Assembly: GCF_000768315.1 (NCBI RefSeq)
Contig: NZ_AQQX01000001.1
Coordinates: 744,001 to 808,000 of the forward strand
Reading direction: 5' to 3'
Source of the DNA: Pseudooceanicola atlanticus
Lineage (GTDB): Bacteria > Pseudomonadota > Alphaproteobacteria > Rhodobacterales > Rhodobacteraceae
Length of the DNA: 64,000 nt
Positions within the stretch are counted from its first letter, which is position 1. Each line of letters opens with the position of its first letter. The translations under genes were made by a program, and so were the position numbers. Below, one piece after another: positions 53,784 through 64,000 of the stretch. Under the pieces are notes generated by a model. It was not told where the DNA came from. It made no database searches and was given only the letters and a program-made list of their open reading frames with translations.

Positions 53784-54196
53784 TCGATTACAGCTCCACC
53801 GTTCTCGGCCGCGATGTCACGTACAGCCGTGTAGACTTGGCGAGCTTCATCAACCGTTCGGATTTGGGCGGTGTGATATCGCGTCGTCATGCCAAGTCGG
53901 CTCTCAATCGCGCGGTAGACCTCCCCTCGCTCCATATCTCCAGACTGCCAGATCGGATCCAGAACGCGGTGGATGTGCTGGCGCGCGGCCTTCAGCTCAG
54001 GTGTTGGGATACACCCTAGAGGGTTGGTGCGGTTCTTTGTCTTGTGGTGACACCCGACCCAGTTCCCACATGCGTCACACCGCCAGAAGGGCAGTTTCGC
54101 CAGGTCGGATCGATGCGGATAAACCTCTGCTCCATTCGTCAGCCGGGCGGCGACCTCAAGACCGCACCCGCAGCAATGTATTGCCTTTGTGGTCAT
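53780..54196 (-). CDS. Zinc-finger phage protein, DUF3268-like
   Basis: 138 residues. CCGCGLEVAARL, a VYPHRSDL segment and FWRCDACGNWVGCH give a two-part zinc ribbon, followed by a helical half. This resembles the DUF3268 zinc-finger phage family of unknown function. It overlaps both neighbours by four bases. Confidence 0.65.
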   Translation of the reverse strand: MTTKAIHCCGCGLEVAARLTNGAEVYPHRSDLAKLPFWRCDACGNWVGCHHKTKNRTNPLGCIPTPELKAARQHIHRVLDPIWQSGDMERGEVYRAIESRLGMTTRYHTAQIRTVDEARQVYTAVRDIAAENGGAVIE

Positions 54197-54648
54197 GCGA
54201 ATTCCTCCTCATACTTGAGGGCTTCCGGATCGGTCAGCCTGACACCCAGGCCAGCCCAATGGCGCTGCATTTCATCCATGAACGCAGTCATCTGCTTGAC
54301 CGTCATGAGGCGCGTCACGGGCAGATCGAAGGCCTGAACCGCGGCCAGCTTTTCCTCATAAGGCAGGTGCTTCATCGTCCGGTCATAGGACTGGCGGAAC
54401 GCCTCGTTTTCTGACCGGAGGATCGGCACGCCGAAGTGCAGCTTGCAGAAGGCACGGACTTCCTCATGGGTCTGATCGCCCAACTGGCGCGACACGTCGG
54501 TGTACCAGCGTTGTGCCAGGCGATTCTGAGCCGGACGGCGGCTGACACCTTGCGTAACCGTGAGCGTCAACGGGAACTTTGTCCGGGCCGACAGGAACGT
54601 CGCCAGCTTTCCGATGTCGTCTGGATCACGGATCACGCGTGTCGCCAT
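54193..54648 (-). CDS. NinB-like phage recombination protein
   Basis: 151 residues. RRPAQNRLAQRWYTDVSRQL, THEEVRAFCKLHFGVPIL and the C-terminal LMTVKQMTAFMDEMQRHWA with GVRLTDPE resemble NinB, a lambda-family protein that can replace RecFOR functions in phage recombination. It sits near the Rad52-like gene, which supports the assignment. Confidence 0.6.
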   Translation of the reverse strand: MATRVIRDPDDIGKLATFLSARTKFPLTLTVTQGVSRRPAQNRLAQRWYTDVSRQLGDQTHEEVRAFCKLHFGVPILRSENEAFRQSYDRTMKHLPYEEKLAAVQAFDLPVTRLMTVKQMTAFMDEMQRHWAGLGVRLTDPEALKYEEEFA

Positions 54649-54649
54649 T

Positions 54650-54832
54650 TCACGCCACCCCGCTCATGTTCCAGCTGTCCAGCCAAATCCCCCGGACATG
54701 CTCGAACGGCAGGCCGGCCTCTTCGGCCAAGTCGCTGACGATCGCGTGGTAGTCAGGGCCGCACATCGGGTCAGCTCCTTCGGCTCGGCGCTCGATTTCA
54801 GCGAGAAGGTCGGCGTCGGAAAGAGCTGGCAT
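54650..54832 (-). CDS. Hypothetical small phage protein
   Basis: 60 residues, acidic, helical (SDADLLAEIERRAEGADP). No domain is recognised. Its ATG shares one base with the upstream stop (TGATG), so it is translationally coupled. Confidence 0.55.
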   Translation of the reverse strand: MPALSDADLLAEIERRAEGADPMCGPDYHAIVSDLAEEAGLPFEHVRGIWLDSWNMSGVA

Positions 54833-55527
54833 CAGTATGCCTCCTTCTCCTGCCAGACCCGCAGCCCGTCAGCCTGTTGGGTCTCGCGATGGTTCCGGCG
54901 CGCCCACTCTTCGAGGAAGGCGGCGATGTCGTCGGGTCGGTTCTTGTAGAGCCAGGCAAGGAGGTCACGGTGGCTGGTGATCTCGAACTTCGTGACCGTC
55001 CGGAGGCCCTTCGGCTTGTCTTTGCCAGCCTTGGCCGCAGCCTTCTGTGACACCTCGGCTTCCGCCTGGGCTCGAGCGGCCTCGCGCTGGCTTTCGATAT
55101 CGCCTGCACGGGCTTCACGGGCCTTGGCCTCTGCTTCCCGACGCTTGGCCTCGGCCTCTTCACGGGCCTTCCGTTCCGCCTCGGCTTTTTCGGCTGCAAG
55201 CTTGCGTTTGAACGGATCGACGAGAGCGACAAGGCTCTTCTTGATCCGCTCGATGTCATCTTCCGTCGGCTTCCAGCGGGCGATCTCCGCCTTCCACGCG
55301 TCATGGAGCGGGGCAGTCGATGATTTCTTGGCGCTGGCGAGGGCAGTTCCGGCCTTACGGATGTCGGCAATCAGCGCATCCACGGCTTTCATCTGACCTT
55401 CGTTCTCGACCGGCTCGCCATCCAGCCAGTTTTCAGCTTCTGCGATGGCATCCGAGAAGGGGGCCAAAGCCTCGTCTATCGGGTCTGGCGGGCGATTGTG
55501 CCCGACAGCAGGGTTCGATCCATCCAT
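54832..55527 (-). CDS. Coiled-coil phage protein
   Basis: 231 residues. An N-terminal GHNRPPDPIDEAL segment is typical of alphaproteobacterial phage early proteins. Residues of about 105-165 are a charged coiled coil (KAEAERKAREEAEAKRREA), and the C-terminal part is globular (FEITSHRDLLAWLYKN). It may assist the recombination proteins beside it; the function is not known. Confidence 0.65.
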   Translation of the reverse strand: MDGSNPAVGHNRPPDPIDEALAPFSDAIAEAENWLDGEPVENEGQMKAVDALIADIRKAGTALASAKKSSTAPLHDAWKAEIARWKPTEDDIERIKKSLVALVDPFKRKLAAEKAEAERKAREEAEAKRREAEAKAREARAGDIESQREAARAQAEAEVSQKAAAKAGKDKPKGLRTVTKFEITSHRDLLAWLYKNRPDDIAAFLEEWARRNHRETQQADGLRVWQEKEAY

Positions 55528-55530
55528 GGC

Positions 55531-55758
55531 TCAGGTCTCCTGCTCTTCGGAGGTCTCGGGCTGGTAGATGCCTGTGGTCGCCTTGCAGGCGAAGGCGGGC
55601 TCATCGACATCGACCTCGACCACAGTGACGATCTTCTCGACACCGTCAGGGCCAAGGACCGTCACGCGGTCGCCAGGCGCGACAGGCTCTTCGAGTTCAT
55701 GCCGGTAGGTGTATGCGCGACCGGAGCCGTCGGATTTGAAGCTGCAGGTGATAAACAT
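55531..55758 (-). CDS. Hypothetical small phage protein
   Basis: 75 residues, mostly beta strands (RVTVLGPDGVEKIVTVVEVD), no recognised domain. Start ATG 55758. It lies between the coiled-coil and Rad52-like genes with short spacers. Confidence 0.6.
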   Translation of the reverse strand: MFITCSFKSDGSGRAYTYRHELEEPVAPGDRVTVLGPDGVEKIVTVVEVDVDEPAFACKATTGIYQPETSEEQET

Positions 55759-55769
55759 GAGGCGTCCTT

Positions 55770-56567
55770 TCAGAACGGGATCTCGTCGTCGCCGAGATCG
55801 TGGTTGCGAGTCTGGGTGAGCTTGGCCTTCAGGCGATCTTTCTCGGCTGAGAGGCGGTCGTATTCGGCTTTCGACGCGCCCTTGATTTTCAGAATGGTTT
55901 CGCCGGCTTCCCGCCAAAGCTCGGTCAGCGTGTCGATACCGCGCGCCTCCTGAAGCTTGCCGATGACGTTGTCGGTCTCCGACTTGGCATTGAACTCGGG
56001 CACCTGGTTGTCAGGCTGCTGCTGGGTCCGTTTGTCGGCGCTATCTGCGTCAGGCGTGGGCTCATCGGCGTGAAGGTCGCCCTTGTGCCAGAGGTCGAGA
56101 GCGGCACCGAAACGCATCGCGGCATTCCGCAGCGCGTCGCCGATCACCTCCTTGATTGCGTCGCCACCCTTTTTGCCGTCGGGGTGGCCGTAACCAAGGC
56201 GGGTCTGATCGCAGACGGTCAGCTTGATCCACATGCCCCCGTTCTCATCCAGGAGCGGAGTGCCGTTATCCGAGAAGGCCACGGGCTCCCAGTTCCAGTT
56301 GGGATCGCAATCGAGAAGGCGGTCGGTCAGGGCGGCATGGCCGACGTAATCCAGGTGCTGGACCTGCGGATGATGCCACTGGCCGCACTGCTGGCAGCGG
56401 ATGCCCTTCTTGAAATCCGCTCTGACTTCCTCGGTCTGCTTCCTGGTGGGTTTCGGAAGCTTCGAGATATGATGGGCGGCGAACGGCTGACGAAGAAGGT
56501 CCAGGCCGGTCGGCTTGGGCTGCACTTCTGCTGCGCCGTCGGTTTTGACTTTCTGCTGGGTGGTCAT
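55770..56567 (-). CDS. Rad52-like single-strand annealing protein
   Basis: 265 residues. The core has LTDRLLDCDPNWNWEPV, MWIKLTVCDQTRLGYGH and GGDAIKEVIGDALRNAAMRFG, which resemble the Rad52/Sak fold used by phages for strand annealing. A small CQQCGQWHH zinc-type motif lies before the core, unusual for the family. The acidic end HDLGDDEIPF resembles tails that bind single-strand-binding proteins. ATG 56567 is the start; the longer frame belongs to the neighbouring gene's antisense reading. Confidence 0.6.
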   Translation of the reverse strand: MTTQQKVKTDGAAEVQPKPTGLDLLRQPFAAHHISKLPKPTRKQTEEVRADFKKGIRCQQCGQWHHPQVQHLDYVGHAALTDRLLDCDPNWNWEPVAFSDNGTPLLDENGGMWIKLTVCDQTRLGYGHPDGKKGGDAIKEVIGDALRNAAMRFGAALDLWHKGDLHADEPTPDADSADKRTQQQPDNQVPEFNAKSETDNVIGKLQEARGIDTLTELWREAGETILKIKGASKAEYDRLSAEKDRLKAKLTQTRNHDLGDDEIPF

Positions 56568-56947
56568 GCGGCGTCCTCCGAGTTCGTGGTTTCGTCCCGG
56601 TCGAGAATTGCGTCGATCTGGTCCATGGCGTCGAAGAGGCCTGCGGCAGGCCGGATATCGTCCATCACGCAATCTTTGCGGCGAAGCTCCCAGGCGTCGT
56701 CGAGGCCATCCGGCCAGAACAGGAAACCGCGGTATTCGTAGACAGGGCGATTGGACGTCTCGACGAGCTGCGCCTGCATCGCGCGGTTGAAAGCCTTGGC
56801 GGTGGCAGTGGCGACGTGGGGCGGACAACCGAGGTCGACCCGTCTGGCGGGGTTTCCCGCTTCGAATGACAGGAGCTCCGCGTGATAACGGGTGTGCGCC
56901 CGCGTCGCGCCGTACAAGCTGGCGATGAAATGGGCATTGCCGGTCAT
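56564..56947 (-). CDS. Hypothetical phage protein
   Basis: 127 residues, no domain recognised; segments RYHAELLSFEAGNP and LFWPDGLDDAWELRRKDCV stand out. It overlaps the Rad52-like gene by four bases. Start ATG 56947. Confidence 0.6.
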   Translation of the reverse strand: MTGNAHFIASLYGATRAHTRYHAELLSFEAGNPARRVDLGCPPHVATATAKAFNRAMQAQLVETSNRPVYEYRGFLFWPDGLDDAWELRRKDCVMDDIRPAAGLFDAMDQIDAILDRDETTNSEDAA

Positions 56948-56949
56948 GG

Positions 56950-57285
56950 TCAAGCGCTCCAAGCGATGATCGCGAGGCCAATCAGGCTGATGACAGCACA
57001 GACGGCCATGAACGCACTGGGGCGGTCGAACCAGTAGGCCTTGGCAGGCTTCGGCGGGATCTCCGCGATAGGTTTGCTGGAAGGGGTGTATCCCGGCATC
57101 TTCGTTCCTTCGCGGCAGGCCTTGACGGCGTTGCGGATGCGGAGGTCGCGGCGGCTCTTGATGAGCCAGTCGCCGACTTCTCCGGTGATCGGGGCGGACA
57201 GGGGCAGGGAGGAGGAGAGCCCCTGTCCGACGGACCCACCCAGGGAGGAGGAGCGGGCAGGGTTCCGTGAGTGTTCGGGGGTCAT
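56950..57285 (-). CDS. Small phage membrane protein
   Basis: 111 residues. A basic region (DWLIKSRRDLRIRNAVKA) is followed by a proline-rich linker and one C-terminal membrane helix (AFMAVCAVISLIGLAIIAW). It overlaps the next gene upstream by four bases. The function is unknown. Confidence 0.6.
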   Translation of the reverse strand: MTPEHSRNPARSSSLGGSVGQGLSSSLPLSAPITGEVGDWLIKSRRDLRIRNAVKACREGTKMPGYTPSSKPIAEIPPKPAKAYWFDRPSAFMAVCAVISLIGLAIIAWSA

Positions 57286-57900: not shown

Positions 57901-58062
57901 ATGAGGTTGATAATTCTGGCAGCGGCGTTGGTCGCTCTACCTATGACCTTCTTCTTTGTTATAGAGGGCTGGCTGTCACCGGCCCAAGTTTACCTTTTTG
58001 GTATCCTGCAGGGGGCTGCGATCAGTCGTTCGCTGTTTTCTCGTCGGTCGGCTTGGTGTTAA
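57901..58062 (+). CDS. Possible small membrane protein
   Basis: 53 residues with one or two hydrophobic stretches (LIILAAALVALPMTFFFVIEG). ATG 57901 follows GAGAGG. It is convergent with and overlaps the end of the gene at 58022 by about 40 bases, so it could be a minor or non-coding frame. Confidence 0.4.
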   Translation: MRLIILAAALVALPMTFFFVIEGWLSPAQVYLFGILQGAAISRSLFSRRSAWC

Positions 58063-58840
58063 TTTGACCGTCCGCACCCGGACCTTCGATCAACTTGACT
58101 TCCGAGTTCTGGTTGGTAATCGCCAAGGCTACAGGGCCTGCAATCATTGCCAGGGTCAGGACATCAGACGTCAATCCCAGTGCGAACGCACCGCCCTTCA
58201 TTGAAGATGCAACCCATGCTCTGAACTTTTCCAGAAATTCGGCTTGCTCGCCGTCTACGTTTTCAAACTCGTCTCGCAGATCCGCGAAAATTCCCTTCAA
58301 TCGACGGCGAATCTGATCATCTGAAGCGCCTTCGCGTTCATGCATGATGCGGAGCAATGCAGACAGTTTCAGGGCGACGACGGCCTTCTGCATCTCGGGA
58401 AGTGTAGAAGCCCTAACGGCTTCCAGCATGGTTTCGGTAGTTCCTATGAATTCTTGTCGGTCAAATTTCTGTGTCGTAGCTATCCGGCTTGTCGCGACTG
58501 TGTTTCCGACTAGGCGAAGGGTTCCAATCACGTTCTTGGCCTGAGAGGCCGCCACGAACTCTTTGACGGCATTTTGCGCAAGTCCCTTCAGCGCTAATCC
58601 TTGAAAGTGGCGGACACTGCTAAGCATGTCACGAACATTCTGCTCGGGCAGGCCAGGCAGGTGAGCAATCTCCTCAATGGCGTCATCGAACAAATGGATG
58701 ATCGCGATCCGAGCCTCATCCGAGTCGACTTCTGGGAATGCCGCGGCAAGACCCTGCACAAGGTTGCCTTTGGGATCTGATTCAGCGATCGCGGCGTACA
58801 CGTCTGCCAAACGAAAACAGGTATTCTCCGCAAAATCCAT
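58022..58840 (-). CDS. Uncharacterised membrane-anchored protein in the immunity region
   Basis: 272 residues, no recognised family. It is mostly helical, with one clear membrane helix near the C-terminus (ALGLTSDVLTLAMIAGPVAL) and a short acidic tail. The sequence is lower in GC than its neighbours. It is next to the repressor and read in the same direction, a place where phages often carry lysogeny-expressed genes such as superinfection exclusion or defence proteins. That role is inference only. Confidence 0.65.
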   Translation of the reverse strand: MDFAENTCFRLADVYAAIAESDPKGNLVQGLAAAFPEVDSDEARIAIIHLFDDAIEEIAHLPGLPEQNVRDMLSSVRHFQGLALKGLAQNAVKEFVAASQAKNVIGTLRLVGNTVATSRIATTQKFDRQEFIGTTETMLEAVRASTLPEMQKAVVALKLSALLRIMHEREGASDDQIRRRLKGIFADLRDEFENVDGEQAEFLEKFRAWVASSMKGGAFALGLTSDVLTLAMIAGPVALAITNQNSEVKLIEGPGADGQINTKPTDEKTAND

Positions 58841-58841
58841 A

Positions 58842-59060
58842 TCACCCCCTCAACGCAGCCGCCATCAGCCTTGCCAGTCTGGCCTCGATCGGCGCCGTCC
58901 TGCTGTCGTTTGCGCTGGCGAGCAAGTCGTCGGCCACCTCGGCTCTGCCAGCCTCTGTCTCAACGAGGCCCCGGATGATATCCGCCACCATGCGGGCGGA
59001 AGCGGAGCGGGTGTCGGCCAGCTCGCGTTCCAAGGCAAGGATGCGTTGTTCCGGGGTCAT
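58842..59060 (-). CDS. Hypothetical small protein next to the repressor
   Basis: 72 residues, helical (EQRILALERELADTRSASAR). It overlaps the repressor stop by four bases and is read after it, so it is probably part of the lysogenic transcript. Confidence 0.6.
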   Translation of the reverse strand: MTPEQRILALERELADTRSASARMVADIIRGLVETEAGRAEVADDLLASANDSRTAPIEARLARLMAAALRG

Positions 59061-59746
59061 ACCTTGCGCCCATACCAGAGCACCTTCCCGACTGGCTCGA
59101 TGTCATCGACAGCAGCGTCGAGAGGCGGATATAGTTCCCGGTTATCCGAGATGATCATGACATGGCCCCGCTTCACCGACCTTCCCACGCGCTTTACGTG
59201 TAGGGCGTCGTTGAAGCGCAGCACGAACAGGCCGTCAAAGCTGAGGTTCGTCTTGCTCGCGTCGAGCAGGACGATGTCGTCGTCCAGGAGCGTCGGTTCC
59301 ATGCTCTCGCCCTTCACGCTGATGATGGCGAGGTTGCCGGGACTGCTGCTGGTCAGGCGTTTTAGATAGGCGGGTGGGAAGGCGAGGGAGTAGACCTCAG
59401 TCTCTTGGTCTATTACCGCGCCGTATCCCGCGCTGGCGGATAGGTCGTACACTGGCACAAGGTCGATTTCGGTCTGGACGGGTTCCCCTGGTTCGACGCG
59501 CTGGAAAGCGGGGGTGTCCTCATTGAGGCTTGGGGCTGCGATCTGCGCTTCGTATTGCGATTCGACTACCGTCTCGATCACATTGCGAATTCTCTCAGCA
59601 TTTTCAGCCGATGTGCTTGAGCTGTCGCGACGCTTCAGCTTGTTCAGCACATCGTAACTCACGCCAGAGCGTCGGGAGAACTCTGCGACGGACATTCCCG
59701 TAGCGCCTAGGTAGTCAAGGAACTGGTCTCTGATGTTTTTGGCCAT
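59057..59746 (-). CDS. CI-like phage repressor with S24 self-cleaving domain
   Basis: 229 residues. The N-terminal HTH (GMSVAEFSRRSGVSYDVLNKL) binds DNA. The C-terminal LexA/CI domain has the Ala-Gly cleavage site in SASAGYGAV, the catalytic Ser in VKGESMEPTL and the Lys in LHVKRVG. Loss of repression after RecA activation is expected. ATG 59746 is chosen because the frame before it runs through the operator region. There is no strong ribosome site. Confidence 0.9.
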   Translation of the reverse strand: MAKNIRDQFLDYLGATGMSVAEFSRRSGVSYDVLNKLKRRDSSSTSAENAERIRNVIETVVESQYEAQIAAPSLNEDTPAFQRVEPGEPVQTEIDLVPVYDLSASAGYGAVIDQETEVYSLAFPPAYLKRLTSSSPGNLAIISVKGESMEPTLLDDDIVLLDASKTNLSFDGLFVLRFNDALHVKRVGRSVKRGHVMIISDNRELYPPLDAAVDDIEPVGKVLWYGRKV

Positions 59747-59782
59747 GTGGCCACTAAATGCAGTAGCGCAGGCCAATTCTAC

Positions 59783-59824
59783 TGGCCATTTGTCCTTGAC
59801 AGATTCTGGACAATTGGCCATTTA
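59783..59824 (+). promoter_or_regulatory. Rightward promoter with two inverted operators
   Basis: TGGCCATTTGTCC (59783-59795) and GGACAATTGGCCA (59808-59820) face each other around TTGACA (59796-59801), which serves as a -35 with a -10 near 59819-59824 (CATTTA/ATTTAT). The second operator covers the spacer. The cores are identical to those at the leftward promoter, as expected for one repressor controlling both. Confidence 0.72.
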
Positions 59825-59831
59825 TTGAGCC

Positions 59832-60035
59832 ATGACCGAGCAACTCATCAAAGACGTCGAAGAATACTGCGACGCCGCGCGTATCAGCCCGGCCACTCTG
59901 GCGGTGCGCGTGCTGAACAACAGTCGGTACTTCGACCGGCTTCGGAAGAAACTCGAGCGAGAAGAGGATGCCGAGGAACGGCTCCGCCGGTACATGGCAG
60001 ACAACCCTCCTCCGGATCGAGAGGTGGCAGCTTGA
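59832..60035 (+). CDS. Small Cro-like DNA-binding protein
   Basis: 67 residues. ARISPATLAVRVLNNSRYFDRLRKKLE looks like a compact HTH followed by a basic helix. It is the first gene after the rightward promoter, the place of cro. The identity is inferred from position and size. Confidence 0.55.
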   Translation: MTEQLIKDVEEYCDAARISPATLAVRVLNNSRYFDRLRKKLEREEDAEERLRRYMADNPPPDREVAA

Positions 60036-60217
60036 GCGGTACACCTGAACCAGCGGCGACGGCCACAGAAGTCTCCGACGATAATCGTTCTGAATTCTGG
60101 GACGTGCTGGACCGTTTCGCCGCCCAGGCCGAGGAAATCGAGATCCGTCACAAAGTCGGAAGCCTCGAAATCACACGGATCATTCGGCTTTCGCCGATCC
60201 GCATCCCAGCCGCCTGA
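60032..60217 (+). CDS. Hypothetical small phage protein
   Basis: 61 residues from TTG 60032, which overlaps the previous stop (TTGA). It has an acidic helical first half and a basic end (KVGSLEITRIIRLSPIRIP). No domain recognised. Confidence 0.55.
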   Translation: MSGTPEPAATATEVSDDNRSEFWDVLDRFAAQAEEIEIRHKVGSLEITRIIRLSPIRIPAA

Positions 60218-60308
60218 ACGGCCTGAATATGCATCGCTCACTGACATACCGGCGAGAATGAGCGCCCCTTTTCCCGCCGCCAAGCGAAACCGACAGAGGA
60301 TTTTTCAC

Positions 60309-60767
60309 ATGAGGCCAACGAAGGCAGGAACAATCCAGAGCGCCGTTGCGGCCACCTATCGGGCAGCGGGTGGTGTCGAAGAAGCCGCAGAGCTTCTCGG
60401 CATCGCTCTCTCGACGGCAAGCTATGGCACTGAGGTCAACGATCACCGCCCAGGTGGGTTGGGGGTCAACTACCTCGACCGCCTTGGCCGCATTGATCCC
60501 GCCTATGCCCGCGCCATCGCCGAGCATTTCGCGGCGCTGGCCGGGGGCGCATTCACCGCGCACGACCAAGCCCCGGCGCAGTCCGTTTCGCAGCACGTGT
60601 CGGCCATCGTCAAAGAGCACTCCGAGGCCGTCATTGCGCTGAACTCCGGTGCATGCCCGCATCAGACGCGGCGCGAACTCATCGAGGCCCGCGACGCCTG
60701 TTCCGATGCAATCCGGGACCTCGACCACCGCGCCGGTATTCTGCCGGTAACCCGGACGGTGTCGTAA
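60309..60767 (+). CDS. Phage regulatory-type HTH protein
   Basis: 152 residues. AAGGVEEAAELLGIALSTASYG looks like an HTH, followed by a helical region (AYARAIAEHFAALAGG) and a C-terminal ACPHQTRRELIEARDACSDA helix. This resembles phage regulatory proteins of the CII class or related ones. It precedes the four-HTH fusion gene by two bases. Confidence 0.55.
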   Translation: MRPTKAGTIQSAVAATYRAAGGVEEAAELLGIALSTASYGTEVNDHRPGGLGVNYLDRLGRIDPAYARAIAEHFAALAGGAFTAHDQAPAQSVSQHVSAIVKEHSEAVIALNSGACPHQTRRELIEARDACSDAIRDLDHRAGILPVTRTVS

Positions 60768-60769
60768 CC

Positions 60770-62473
60770 ATGCCTGACGCTGTCTCCTCATCCGACCAAG
60801 CCTTGATCGATGCCTTTCTGGCAAAGAACCAGGTGACCAAGGTTCCAGCCGGGACCACTTCGCAAGCGCCGTATGTCTGGAACGGAAGAACGCTCGAATC
60901 CACCGGCCCAAGCTGGCGGGAGGCGAACCGTCGCAAGAGCCGCAAGAGCGGTACAACGCCAGAGGTTGCGGCCCGCCGCATCAAGGTTTCTGACCTGATC
61001 CACGATGGCAAGACGGCCCAGGAAGCGGCGGATGCCCTCGGGGTCAGCCTCCAAGTCATCTACAAGGATTGCTCCGTCCTCGGTCTGGGCGTGAAGCAGC
61101 AACAGAAGACGAGAAGGCGGGCTGCACCGAAGCCGAAGCCCGCATTGACGGCCCAGACTGCGCCCAAGGCCATCGCCGCGAAGTCCCGGCACGACCCTCG
61201 CGTCGAAAAGAACCGGGCGGCAATCCGGGACGCCTTCGACGGCAAGAAAACGGCAGCGCAGATTGGGCGGGAAACCGGCATCCATATCCGGACGGTGAAA
61301 AGTCACCTGTCGGCACTCGGCCTGACGCCACCCTCACCCTACAAGCGCGAACTGAAAGAGGCGATTGAGCGCCGATCTCAACTGCCGGCTCTGGTCGCAT
61401 CCGGCATGACCAATCCTCAGCTGGCCGAGAAGTTCGGTGTCAGCACCTCGGCCATCAGCGCGGATTGCAAGCGCCTCGGCCTTTCGCCGAACCGGACGCA
61501 GCGCCGGGATGCTGGCGGCAATGAGGGGCGACGGGCTCAGATCCCCCGCCTGATCGAGGAAGGCCTGACTGGCCCCCAAATCGCGCAGCGCCTCGGTTGC
61601 AGCCGCGCGACCATTTACAAGGACTGCACTGAACTCGGCATTTCGATCCCGCGGAGGGGCCGAGCAGCTGGTCGGGTTGATCACATCGCAGAAGAGAAGG
61701 CCCGGAAGGCGGAGCGTAAGCGTGCAGAAGTTCGTGACCGGCGGCGGTTCAAGACGACACCGGTGCCAACCGGCCAGGCCTCGCGGCTGGCGCCTCAGGA
61801 TCTTCACGAAACCATGTTCCCGCATTCGCGCCGGGACCCGTTGGACGGAAGCCAGACCGTCCTGAAGGACGGGGCGAATTCATCGAAAATCGGTGGCGGC
61901 GTTTTGAAGGGGCGTTTGAAGGGGGCCAAGATCCTCACCCTGACGCTGGAGGAGCGGGCGACCTGCCCGAGATCCTGCCTGGTTTACCGGGAGTGCTACG
62001 GCAACGGCATGCAATATGCGCATCGGTTTGCCCATGGCCCGGGCTTGATGCGCAAGCTGGCAGAAGAACTGAAGGATGCTTGCCGGGTCAACGAAATGGT
62101 CCTGGTACGGCTGCATATCCTCGGGGATTTCTGGTCGGTGGAATACGTCGAATTCTGGCGGAGCATGCTGGCCGAACTGCCGAACCTTAATGCTTTCGGC
62201 TTTACCGCGCGCCCCTCGGGCACACCGATCGGTGATGCGATCAACGCCCTTCGGTCTGATTGTCCCGACCGCTTCATGATCCGCACGAGCGGGCGATCCG
62301 GCGAATGGGGCAGCTTCACGATCGACTTCCCGACCGAGAAGAAGCGCATCGGGGATGCCATCGTCTGCCCTGAGCAAACGGCATCCATGAACGGCGATGA
62401 CGACGGGCGCCACTGCGGCAACTGCGGCTTTTGCTGGGCCAGCCGTGGCCCGGTCGCGTTCGTGGAGCATTGA
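60770..62473 (+). CDS. Four-HTH protein fused to a gp88-like cysteine-rich domain
   Basis: 567 residues. Four HTH units recur at about 72-106, 149-185, 204-238 and 257-291, each with a G-x-T-x(2)-(Q/E)-(I/A)-A/G pattern and ending in (D/K)-x-C/L-x(2)-LG(L/I). A basic linker leads to a C-terminal domain (about 330-567) with LTLEERATCPRSC, ECYGNGMQYAHR, HILGDFWS and RPSGTPIG. Cysteines at 399, 403 and 409 and at 533, 549, 552 and 555 suggest a metal or iron-sulfur site, as in gp88-type phage proteins. This fusion is not a standard architecture; the function is unknown. Confidence 0.75.
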   Translation: MPDAVSSSDQALIDAFLAKNQVTKVPAGTTSQAPYVWNGRTLESTGPSWREANRRKSRKSGTTPEVAARRIKVSDLIHDGKTAQEAADALGVSLQVIYKDCSVLGLGVKQQQKTRRRAAPKPKPALTAQTAPKAIAAKSRHDPRVEKNRAAIRDAFDGKKTAAQIGRETGIHIRTVKSHLSALGLTPPSPYKRELKEAIERRSQLPALVASGMTNPQLAEKFGVSTSAISADCKRLGLSPNRTQRRDAGGNEGRRAQIPRLIEEGLTGPQIAQRLGCSRATIYKDCTELGISIPRRGRAAGRVDHIAEEKARKAERKRAEVRDRRRFKTTPVPTGQASRLAPQDLHETMFPHSRRDPLDGSQTVLKDGANSSKIGGGVLKGRLKGAKILTLTLEERATCPRSCLVYRECYGNGMQYAHRFAHGPGLMRKLAEELKDACRVNEMVLVRLHILGDFWSVEYVEFWRSMLAELPNLNAFGFTARPSGTPIGDAINALRSDCPDRFMIRTSGRSGEWGSFTIDFPTEKKRIGDAIVCPEQTASMNGDDDGRHCGNCGFCWASRGPVAFVEH

Positions 62474-62475
62474 AC

Positions 62476-62709
62476 ATGGCCGCGTCACCCAAGCTCGATC
62501 AAATCGCCACTCTCTCCGCTGGTGAGGTCGAAGGCTGGTGGAGCGTTCTCGGCAAATACCGAGCCGAACTTCCCGGCGAGCGGGCGGCGCTCCTGGCGCG
62601 GGGCAAGGCTCTTGGCATCAACCCGGCTGGCTCGAAGGGCTGTGCATTCGGCGCACGGAGGAGCCGGAGGAAAGTGCGTGGGCAGGATTCAGAAGGACAT
62701 GCACGATGA
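62476..62709 (+). CDS. Hypothetical small phage protein
   Basis: 77 residues. SPKLDQIATLSAGEVEGWWSVL then a basic C-terminus rich in Arg (FGARRSRRKVRGQ). Its stop overlaps the ParB-like start by four bases. Confidence 0.55.
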   Translation: MAASPKLDQIATLSAGEVEGWWSVLGKYRAELPGERAALLARGKALGINPAGSKGCAFGARRSRRKVRGQDSEGHAR

Positions 62710-63683
62710 TCGAACTGGCGAAAATTCGAACTGACGGCGGGACGCAGTCGCGCGCCCAAATCCATGAGGAGACCGTGGCTGAGTACGCGGAGGCCATGGC
62801 TGATCCGGACACGGTTTTCCCGCCTTGCATCGTCTACTACGACGGCAAGAGCTATTGGCTGGCCGATGGCTTTCATCGGGTCGCGGCATGGGCCCGCGTC
62901 GGGCGCACGGAAGTGCCGGCAGAGGTCCGTCAGGGAGACCGGCGTCGGGCGATGCTGCACTCCGCTGCTGCCAACAAGGCCCACGGTCTTCGGCGGTCGC
63001 GCGAGGATAGGCGGCGGGCAATCATGATGATGCTGGAGGATGAGGAATGGGGGCGGTGGTCCGACAGGGAAATAGCCCGGCACGTTGGCGCTTCACCCAC
63101 GACGGTTTCTAAGTACCGATCGGAATCCGTCACTGTCCAATTGGACAGTGAGCCGCGCACCTACACCACCAAGCACGGCACCGAGGCCACCATGAACACG
63201 GCCAAGATCGGCAAGCCTGCAGAGGCGGTGCGCCCCCCCGCGGAGAGCGCCCCCGTGCCTGAACCCCAGCCGGATCATCAACCGACCGGAGCCGAACCGG
63301 AGCCGAAATCCGAAGATCCGCAACCGAAAGCCCCCGATACGCTACCTGACCCCCACGCCAAGGAACGCAAAGAGCTTTCGAAACTGTCGCGCGAGGGACT
63401 TGAGGACGAGGTCATCGGCCTACGGGCGGACCTGCAGGACGAGAAGGCCAAGCGCAAGGCGGCGCAGTCCGAGGTGAAAGAACTGAAAGCCCAACTCAAA
63501 GCCTTCGATGACCTCGAGGGCGGCCGGGCCCTTGGCAACGCTCGACGCGCACTGCGCGAGTCCGAAGGGCGATCGAAGGAGCATCAAGCCAACGCCGCCC
63601 GCCTGCAACGCCAAGTCAACGCGCAGAAAACCGAAATCGACAGGCTCAGAAAGCAGCTTGAGGGGCAGGAGATACCCCTTTGA
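62706..63683 (+). CDS. ParB-like phage protein with long C-terminal coiled coil
   Basis: 325 residues. An N-terminal ParB/sulfiredoxin-fold domain (IVYYDGKSYWLADGFHRVAAW) is followed by an HTH (SDREIARHVGASPTTVSKYR), a Pro-rich linker (about 170-215) and a charged coiled coil (about 220-320). It could bind and condense phage DNA or act as a CTP-dependent or nuclease-type ParB relative. A 22-bp palindrome lies in its own reading frame just after the HTH. ATG 62706 overlaps the previous gene. Confidence 0.8.
   Translation: MIELAKIRTDGGTQSRAQIHEETVAEYAEAMADPDTVFPPCIVYYDGKSYWLADGFHRVAAWARVGRTEVPAEVRQGDRRRAMLHSAAANKAHGLRRSREDRRRAIMMMLEDEEWGRWSDREIARHVGASPTTVSKYRSESVTVQLDSEPRTYTTKHGTEATMNTAKIGKPAEAVRPPAESAPVPEPQPDHQPTGAEPEPKSEDPQPKAPDTLPDPHAKERKELSKLSREGLEDEVIGLRADLQDEKAKRKAAQSEVKELKAQLKAFDDLEGGRALGNARRALRESEGRSKEHQANAARLQRQVNAQKTEIDRLRKQLEGQEIPL
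63130..63151. repeat. 22-bp perfect palindrome inside the ParB-like gene
   Basis: TCACTGTCCAA is followed directly by its reverse complement TTGGACAGTGA. It encodes part of the segment after the HTH (VTVQLDSE). Its size and symmetry resemble parS-type or operator sites. Confidence 0.7.
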
Positions 63684-63946
63684 GCATCCTCGACCGCATA
63701 CGCGCCAACGGAGGCGAGGTCGTCCGAGATCAATGGCGGATCAGGCTCCGGCGCGGCCGTCTCACCGATGCGGCGATCAAGTGGATTGGAGAGCGCAGGG
63801 ACGAGCTCATGCGCGAGGTCTGGCCATCATATGACGACTGGCTGGAGCGAGCTGCGATCAGGGAATTCGACGGAGGCCAGGCCCGCCATGAAGCGGAAAC
63901 TGCAGCCTATGAGGAAATCATGAAGCGGGAGGCCGCCAAATGCTGA
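63680..63946 (+). CDS. Hypothetical phage protein
   Basis: 88 residues from TTG 63680, overlapping the previous stop (TTGA). Basic first half (VVRDQWRIRLRRGRLTDAAIKWI) and helical acidic end. No domain recognised. Such small genes often precede helicases in alphaproteobacterial phages. Confidence 0.6.
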   Translation: MSILDRIRANGGEVVRDQWRIRLRRGRLTDAAIKWIGERRDELMREVWPSYDDWLERAAIREFDGGQARHEAETAAYEEIMKREAAKC

Positions 63947-64000
63947 ACTTCAAGGAACCCAAAGAGATCAACTTGCGCCCCTACCAGGCAGACGCGATCG
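63940..64000 (+). CDS. Start of a DEAD/DEAH-type helicase (partial)
   Basis: Only 20 codons are in view: MLNFKEPKEINLRPYQADAI. The LRPYQADAI segment is the Q-motif region of phage superfamily 2 helicases (type I/III restriction-like). The ATG overlaps the previous stop by seven bases. The call is a strong hint rather than proof, since the Walker motifs lie beyond the window. Confidence 0.5.
   Translation, partial: MLNFKEPKEINLRPYQADAI

Follow-up and report, generated by a model that had tools for sequence, protein, structure and literature searches.

A gene of a phage-like early region in Pseudooceanicola atlanticus joins four helix-turn-helix units to a GP88-like domain with seven invariant cysteines: a possible DNA-directed metal-cluster enzyme

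The gene described here lies near the right end of a 64,000-nucleotide stretch of Pseudooceanicola atlanticus DNA (contig NZ_AQQX01000001.1, positions 744,001 to 808,000; hereafter the window) and encodes a protein of 567 residues in a frame without internal stops. Following a short N-terminal motif, the protein contains four helix-turn-helix (HTH) units and a C-terminal domain related to the Pfam family GP88 (Table 1). To the left of the gene are an S24 repressor, a Cro-sized gene and a CII-like gene, and on its right a small ORF separates it from a ParB-like gene, which matches PHROG 1033 at E 3.3e-17 and Pfam ParB_N at 16.4 bits, under the cut-off of 26.3. The nearby ParB-like and helicase genes reported in the original prediction were both located, and from a reading of the translations Toprim-type primase and terminase genes appear to lie to the right of the helicase. 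Taken together, the region resembles the early and replication module of temperate phages. We also looked for iterons or an operator array close to the gene; a repeat search of positions 59700-64000 returned no iteron-like array, only short repeats in two copies and a single imperfect inverted pair. Elsewhere in the window, two small ORFs (58022-58840 and 58842-59060, minus strand) directly follow the CI-like repressor on the same strand, a usual site of lysogenic conversion or superinfection-exclusion genes, and the leftward ORFs at 54193-56981 (minus strand) look by eye like a recombination cassette (NinB-like, single-strand annealing-like).

Table 1. Features of the HTH-GP88 gene and its neighbours, in window coordinates.
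Feature	Position	Strand	Evidence
Divergent CI-like repressor with Peptidase_S24 domain	59057..59821	-	Pfam
CII-like gene, upstream; weak matches to PHROG 163 and PHROG 101 (E 5e-5 and 1.5e-4)	60258..60767	+	
CDS: N-terminal motif, four HTH units, GP88-like C-terminal domain	60770..62473	+	frame, Pfam, PHROG, phage homologue
N-terminal motif of ~40 residues (LID...VT..P.G.TS...WNG)	60770..60889	+	read by eye from sequences
HTH unit 1, residues ~65-110	60962..61099	+	Pfam, unit profile
HTH unit 2, residues ~144-189	61199..61336	+	Pfam, unit profile
HTH unit 3, residues ~197-243	61358..61498	+	Pfam, unit profile
HTH unit 4, residues ~250-296	61517..61657	+	Pfam, unit profile
GP88-like C-terminal domain, residues 301-567, modelled beta/alpha barrel-like fold	61670..62470	+	alignment, Pfam, AlphaFold2
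Cys cluster 1, C399-x3-C403-x5-C409-Y, after first barrel strand of model	61964..61996	+	
Cys cluster 2, C533 ... C549-x2-C552-x2-C555	62366..62434	+	
C-terminal His567	62468..62470	+	alignment column
ParB-like gene, second gene downstream (PHROG 1033)	62706..63683	+	
SF2 (ResIII/DEAD) helicase gene, first 61 bases; continues past window	63940..64000	+	profile match

Both halves of the protein are recognized by profile searches. In Pfam, HTH_23 scores 64.4 bits (cut-off 24.6) and HTH_11 scores 60.2 bits, and further HTH families also exceed their cut-offs. A profile of the HTH unit finds four copies in the window protein and three in a homologue from Ruegeria phage 45A6; as the profile was built from these two proteins, its hits in them arise partly by construction, and its E-values refer to a small sequence set. 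The GP88 model (PF17338; cut-off 24.4 bits) falls short with 21.8 bits when the whole protein is scanned and narrowly passes with 25.0 bits when the C-domain is scanned by itself. PHROG 2554 matches the protein at E 1.5e-84 with its best stretch at residues 253-567, and in the genome search profile positions 4-252 fall on the HTH part. The tandem HTH units fused to a GP88-like cysteine domain that had been read from the sequence are therefore borne out, and the seven cysteines occupy exactly the residues originally given for them (399/403/409 and 533/549/552/555). A known defence protein was considered as well, and in the window protein PADLOC yields just two HTH-sized matches (mad1 and WYL).

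The original prediction had named a joining of two separate genes by error as one case against it, and we find that a sequencing or assembly error of this kind is hardly credible. The fusion is not an error because phage 45A6 encodes the same architecture: its protein (ANH49055.1) is 42.6% identical over 99% of the window protein, with the same order of parts, namely the N-terminal motif, tandem HTH units and a GP88-like domain containing all seven cysteines, although it carries three HTH units rather than four. PHROG 2554 likewise covers both the HTH part and the C-domain, and the frame is uninterrupted in the assembly, where a whole-genome search finds a single intact copy of the gene. In 45A6 the next gene (L011:6550-7605) is not ParB-like but encodes an FtsK_gamma domain fused to a GapR-like DNA-binding domain.

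The GP88-like domain is widespread in phages and rare in host genomes. Six records of a phage collection match the window protein, 45A6 at full length and the other five (RcZahn, Lucius in two records, CRP-361 and CRP-114) along its C-terminal part, and a scan of viral contigs with a six-sequence alignment as query gave at least 575 relatives among the 600 stretches listed, of which 80 loci were kept. No plasmid relatives were detected by tblastn at E<=1e-5. With the window's own genome included in each count, 4 of 394 host genomes of the same family match the family alignment, and 4 of 385 genomes of the class match PHROG 2554. A scan of genome contigs found two relatives (L001 and L002), both on Paracoccaceae/Rhodobacteraceae MAG contigs; by eye, each has a RecT-like gene upstream and, downstream, one that resembles the DNA polymerase sliding clamp, and both belong to the clamp cluster of neighbourhoods. 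Loci from the several searches gave 101 domain rows on 100 frames, which were reduced to 79 non-redundant rows by excluding profile matches ending before 250 or starting after 70 and identical domains, the pieces of a broken copy at L008/L010 being among the rows excluded; the DUF7227 locus L006 stands outside this set. This GP88-like copy at L008/L010 is interrupted by stop codons and appears in separate pieces only. The Pfam GP88 model matches all members of a 71-row alignment at E<=1 (71/71, best 4.9e-13), the window's C-domain marginally so; this alignment contains the window and 70 of 71 references, with L040 omitted and L002 set to its ATG. Among literature titles and the opening parts of abstracts, no paper describing the function of the GP88 family was found. 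The gene is a real, intact and conserved fusion and a member of a named, uncharacterised family, and to call it an undescribed system, as was first proposed, is too strong, since the domain has a Pfam entry and its HTH-fused form is already present in PHROG 2554 and 45A6.

All seven cysteines (C399, C403, C409, C533, C549, C552 and C555) are identical in 79/79 rows, as are K373, E395, R419, H449, G452, D453, Y459, W463 and S507. The column of H567 is also identical in every one of the 79 rows, and in 72 of them the frame ends with this histidine. The spacing of the first cluster is C-x3-C-x5-C in 78/79 rows and C-x2-C-x5-C in the remaining one.

The structure prediction originally suggested for the fusion was run on the C-domain with AlphaFold2, using the 71-row alignment. 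The model (mean pLDDT 91.9, pTM 0.88) alternates strands and helices, and confidently predicts a beta/alpha barrel-like fold. In it, cluster 1 comes after the first barrel strand (residues 87-91 of the domain), an R-L-H-x-x-G-D motif ends and trails the second strand, C533 follows the strand at 230-232 of the domain, and F564 and H567 are positioned at the last strand. Thirteen of the 24 invariant residues fall at C-terminal strand ends in the model, where ~5 are expected (hypergeometric p 4e-4, for windows covering 60/267 positions that were chosen after the model was seen), and three of the 24 fall at N-terminal strand ends. As judged from secondary structure rather than distances, the invariant residues would lie largely on the active-site side of the barrel. 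A separate model of DUF7227 (PF23872), made from 57 rows (57 of 80 loci; pLDDT 93.1), shows the same order of strands and cysteines. The two families also resemble each other at the profile level (hhalign probability 94%, E 1e-7, with 18% identity in the alignment), and DUF7227 presents C-x3-C-x6-C, R-H-x-x-x-G-D and C...C-x2-C-x2-C...F..H in the same order as the GP88-like domain, the modelled member being a lone domain of 242 residues.

The models were then compared to known and predicted structures. A search of the PDB for a solved fold returned nothing below E 1e-3 for either the GP88-like or the DUF7227 model; the weak matches are mostly general TIM barrels of unrelated function, with no radical-SAM name among the 50 listed per model. 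Sequence searches for solved relatives gave a best E of 1.8 for the GP88-like domain in one search and none at E<=10 in another, none for a DUF5131 protein and a best E of 0.59 for DUF7227. In the BFVD the top ranks are mostly GP88, DUF7227 or nameless entries (best E 2.7e-18), with one Gp37/Gp68-like entry at E 4.5e-5. Eight entries named radical SAM, organic radical activating enzyme, QueE or MoaA occur at BFVD ranks 25-50 (E 0.045-0.38), each of these matches being insignificant by itself.

Radical-SAM enzymes have a partial beta/alpha barrel in which a Cys triad follows strand 1, and their canonical motif is CX3CX2C. This motif is not present in the 79 rows, and Radical_SAM (PF04055) is absent from the 15 families to which the 71 members show matches at E<=1. 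A link to radical SAM runs only through the Pfam GP88 model, DUF5131 and TIGR04471 ('radical SAM mobile pair protein A'). The GP88 model is over its cut-off on two DUF5131 proteins (L016, 32.6 bits; L017, 30.1 bits), and of its matches in 5/398 genomes of the phylum, four lie inside a DUF5131 protein (L016-L019). L016 and L017 in turn match TIGR04471 at E 3e-27 and 3e-26, with scores of 92-95 bits that are under the equivalog cut-off of 355. As two of the DUF5131 proteins matched are over the GP88 cut-off, Pfam GP88 and DUF5131 probably belong together in one grouping, and the chain of profiles from GP88 to TIGR04471 suggests a possible distant tie. DUF5131 (Gp37/Gp68) proteins resemble the GP88-like domain in having a Cys triad followed by a Tyr, but L016 and L017 differ from it by eye in their C-x6-C-x2-C spacing and in having no second Cys cluster. 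Direct comparisons gave no significant link: the GP88-like family profile has no DUF5131 hits at E<=1, and hhalign of the family stays short of significance against both DUF5131 (E 0.076) and a set of 13 host radical-SAM proteins (E 0.16). Because these comparisons fail and both the canonical motif and the Radical_SAM profile are absent, we describe the C-domain as radical-SAM-like and not as a member of that superfamily.

These features are consistent with a DNA-directed metal-cluster enzyme (Fe-S, radical-SAM-like) of the phage GP88 group that is encoded in an early operon, which is the reading we tentatively favour, while regarding it as somewhat short of probable. Cluster 1, with its three ligands, would most likely bind a [4Fe-4S] cluster that leaves a site open, the arrangement known from radical-SAM enzymes, and cluster 2, with four cysteines and perhaps His567, may hold a Zn site or an auxiliary cluster. 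Its four HTH units would bring the enzyme to particular DNA sites, and it would act early, in one gene run with the ParB-like and helicase genes. Since the HTH units would target DNA, the most likely substrate would be DNA itself or a product of the replication complex. The single intact gene, its architecture, the invariant residues, the size of the family and the recurrent HTH and ParB-like partners are observed, and the barrel comes from the model; Fe-S content, the use of SAM, DNA as the substrate and the reaction are inferred.

How often the domain is joined to DNA-binding units bears on this reading. An HTH was counted as supported when the unit profile (domain E<0.001) or a Pfam HTH family (E<0.001) matched ahead of the domain, which is the case in 11/79 rows: eight by the unit profile (window, L011, L026, L055, L022, L090, L103 and L043) and a further three by Pfam (L098, L036 and L035). 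Weaker HTH signs in L061, L014, L038 and L039 were not counted as supported. Fewer than 40 residues precede the domain in 45/79 rows and at least 40 in 34/79, lengths that depend on uncertain start codons, as extensions were read from the frame. The HTHs vary in type. Outside the close clade described below there are GcrA-like HTHs in L098 (29.9 bits, over the cut-off) and L090 (24.1, below it), a Sigma70_r4-like HTH in L055 (25.7 bits, at the cut-off), a LexA-like HTH in L036 (21.0 bits, below) and a Myb-like one in L035 (20.9, below); L022, L026 and L103 carry HTH units. Pfam at E<=0.05 finds nothing in L039 or L043, the latter of which matches the unit profile (E 4e-4). Ten of 31 N-terminal extensions were scanned singly against Pfam, and L102 and L103, both among the 34 rows with at least 40 residues, were covered by the unit profile only; when the 31 were pooled with that of the window, no HTH family was present in more than 4/32 at E<=0.01.

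The number of units also varies among close relatives. In a tree of 32 domain rows, the window protein, 45A6 and 11 others form a clade of 13 (support 100/99) with four units in the window protein, three in 45A6, and one in L026, L022 and L103. No unit was found in the remaining eight, three of which (L001, L002 and L079), with under 25 residues before the domain, fall outside the HTH unit search. The N-terminal motif, read by eye, is common to the window protein and 45A6, and is partly present in L022, which has one unit, and in L023, L025, L027 and L102, in which none was found. As some members without units share this motif, gain or loss of HTH units within the protein seems to have occurred; in the 32-row tree the branching inside the clade is too open to put such events in order.

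This distribution weighs on the possibility that the protein is a DNA-binding regulator of transcription or replication, whose array binds operators or an origin in the early region and whose Fe-S or Zn clusters serve redox or metal sensing, or stability, without catalysis. Its position after the CI-like repressor, Cro-sized and CII-like genes and before the ParB-like and helicase genes is what such a regulator would show, and the four units match regulator-type HTH families, yet we consider this account to be on the unlikely side. A supported HTH is restricted to 11/79 relatives, and the 45/79 with fewer than 40 residues before the domain have too little room for one, as would be expected of an enzyme core more than of a regulator; the invariant polar K, E, R, H, D and S residues that the model places at barrel strand ends suggest catalysis, and the repeats in 59700-64000 amount to short two-copy ones with no iteron-like array. 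Of the two proposals originally made for the protein, a DNA-targeted metalloenzyme is better supported than a redox-sensing regulator.

The same counts imply that DNA need not be the substrate of a GP88-type enzyme, as an HTH is supported in 11/79 relatives and has no room in 45/79. A metalloenzyme acting on a nucleotide, RNA or protein, in which the HTH array only holds the enzyme at the replication complex or autoregulates, would agree with relatives without room for an HTH being the majority. It would also agree with the neighbours seen in representatives of recurrent neighbourhood clusters, which include sliding clamp (DnaN), DUF932, MT-A70 and SNF2 helicase genes. We nevertheless judge it fairly unlikely, as the HTH fusion recurs with different HTH types.

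ParB-like neighbours were examined by searching 50 of 75 chosen records and comparing positions by hand. ParB_N was matched at E<=0.01 in 11/50 records (13 matches), and in 7/50 a match lies ~0.65-0.95 kb upstream of the domain on the same strand, with a chance expectation from the 2.2 Mb of record lengths of ~0.6/13 matches within 1 kb. All seven upstream matches are below the Pfam cut-off, and they are not independent events because their loci all fall in a single BLAST cluster of the upstream gene, which spans 10 loci and includes a DUF6551-like member (22.1 bits, cut-off 26.8). The window's own ParB-like gene is downstream of the domain, not upstream.

The DNA-targeted metalloenzyme of the original prediction stays putative, and it has gained two kinds of support: invariant cysteines and polar residues that in the model are largely on one face, and HTH and ParB-like partners that recur. 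A more specific form of it, in which a sequence-addressed, non-canonical (CX3CX5C) radical enzyme with two clusters makes an HTH-guided change to a base or sugar at phage or host DNA sites, is speculative and fairly unlikely. For a domain of unknown function, the analysis nonetheless offers a testable claim, that of an Fe-S enzyme working at DNA, which is underlain by seven invariant cysteines, a barrel-like model and repeated DNA-binding partners. The close clade, whose members carry 0, 1, 3 or 4 HTH units, is a natural series for the contribution of the HTH array. If the radical-enzyme proposal were true, GP88, DUF7227 and DUF5131 would form one large unrecognised radical-SAM branch of mobile elements.
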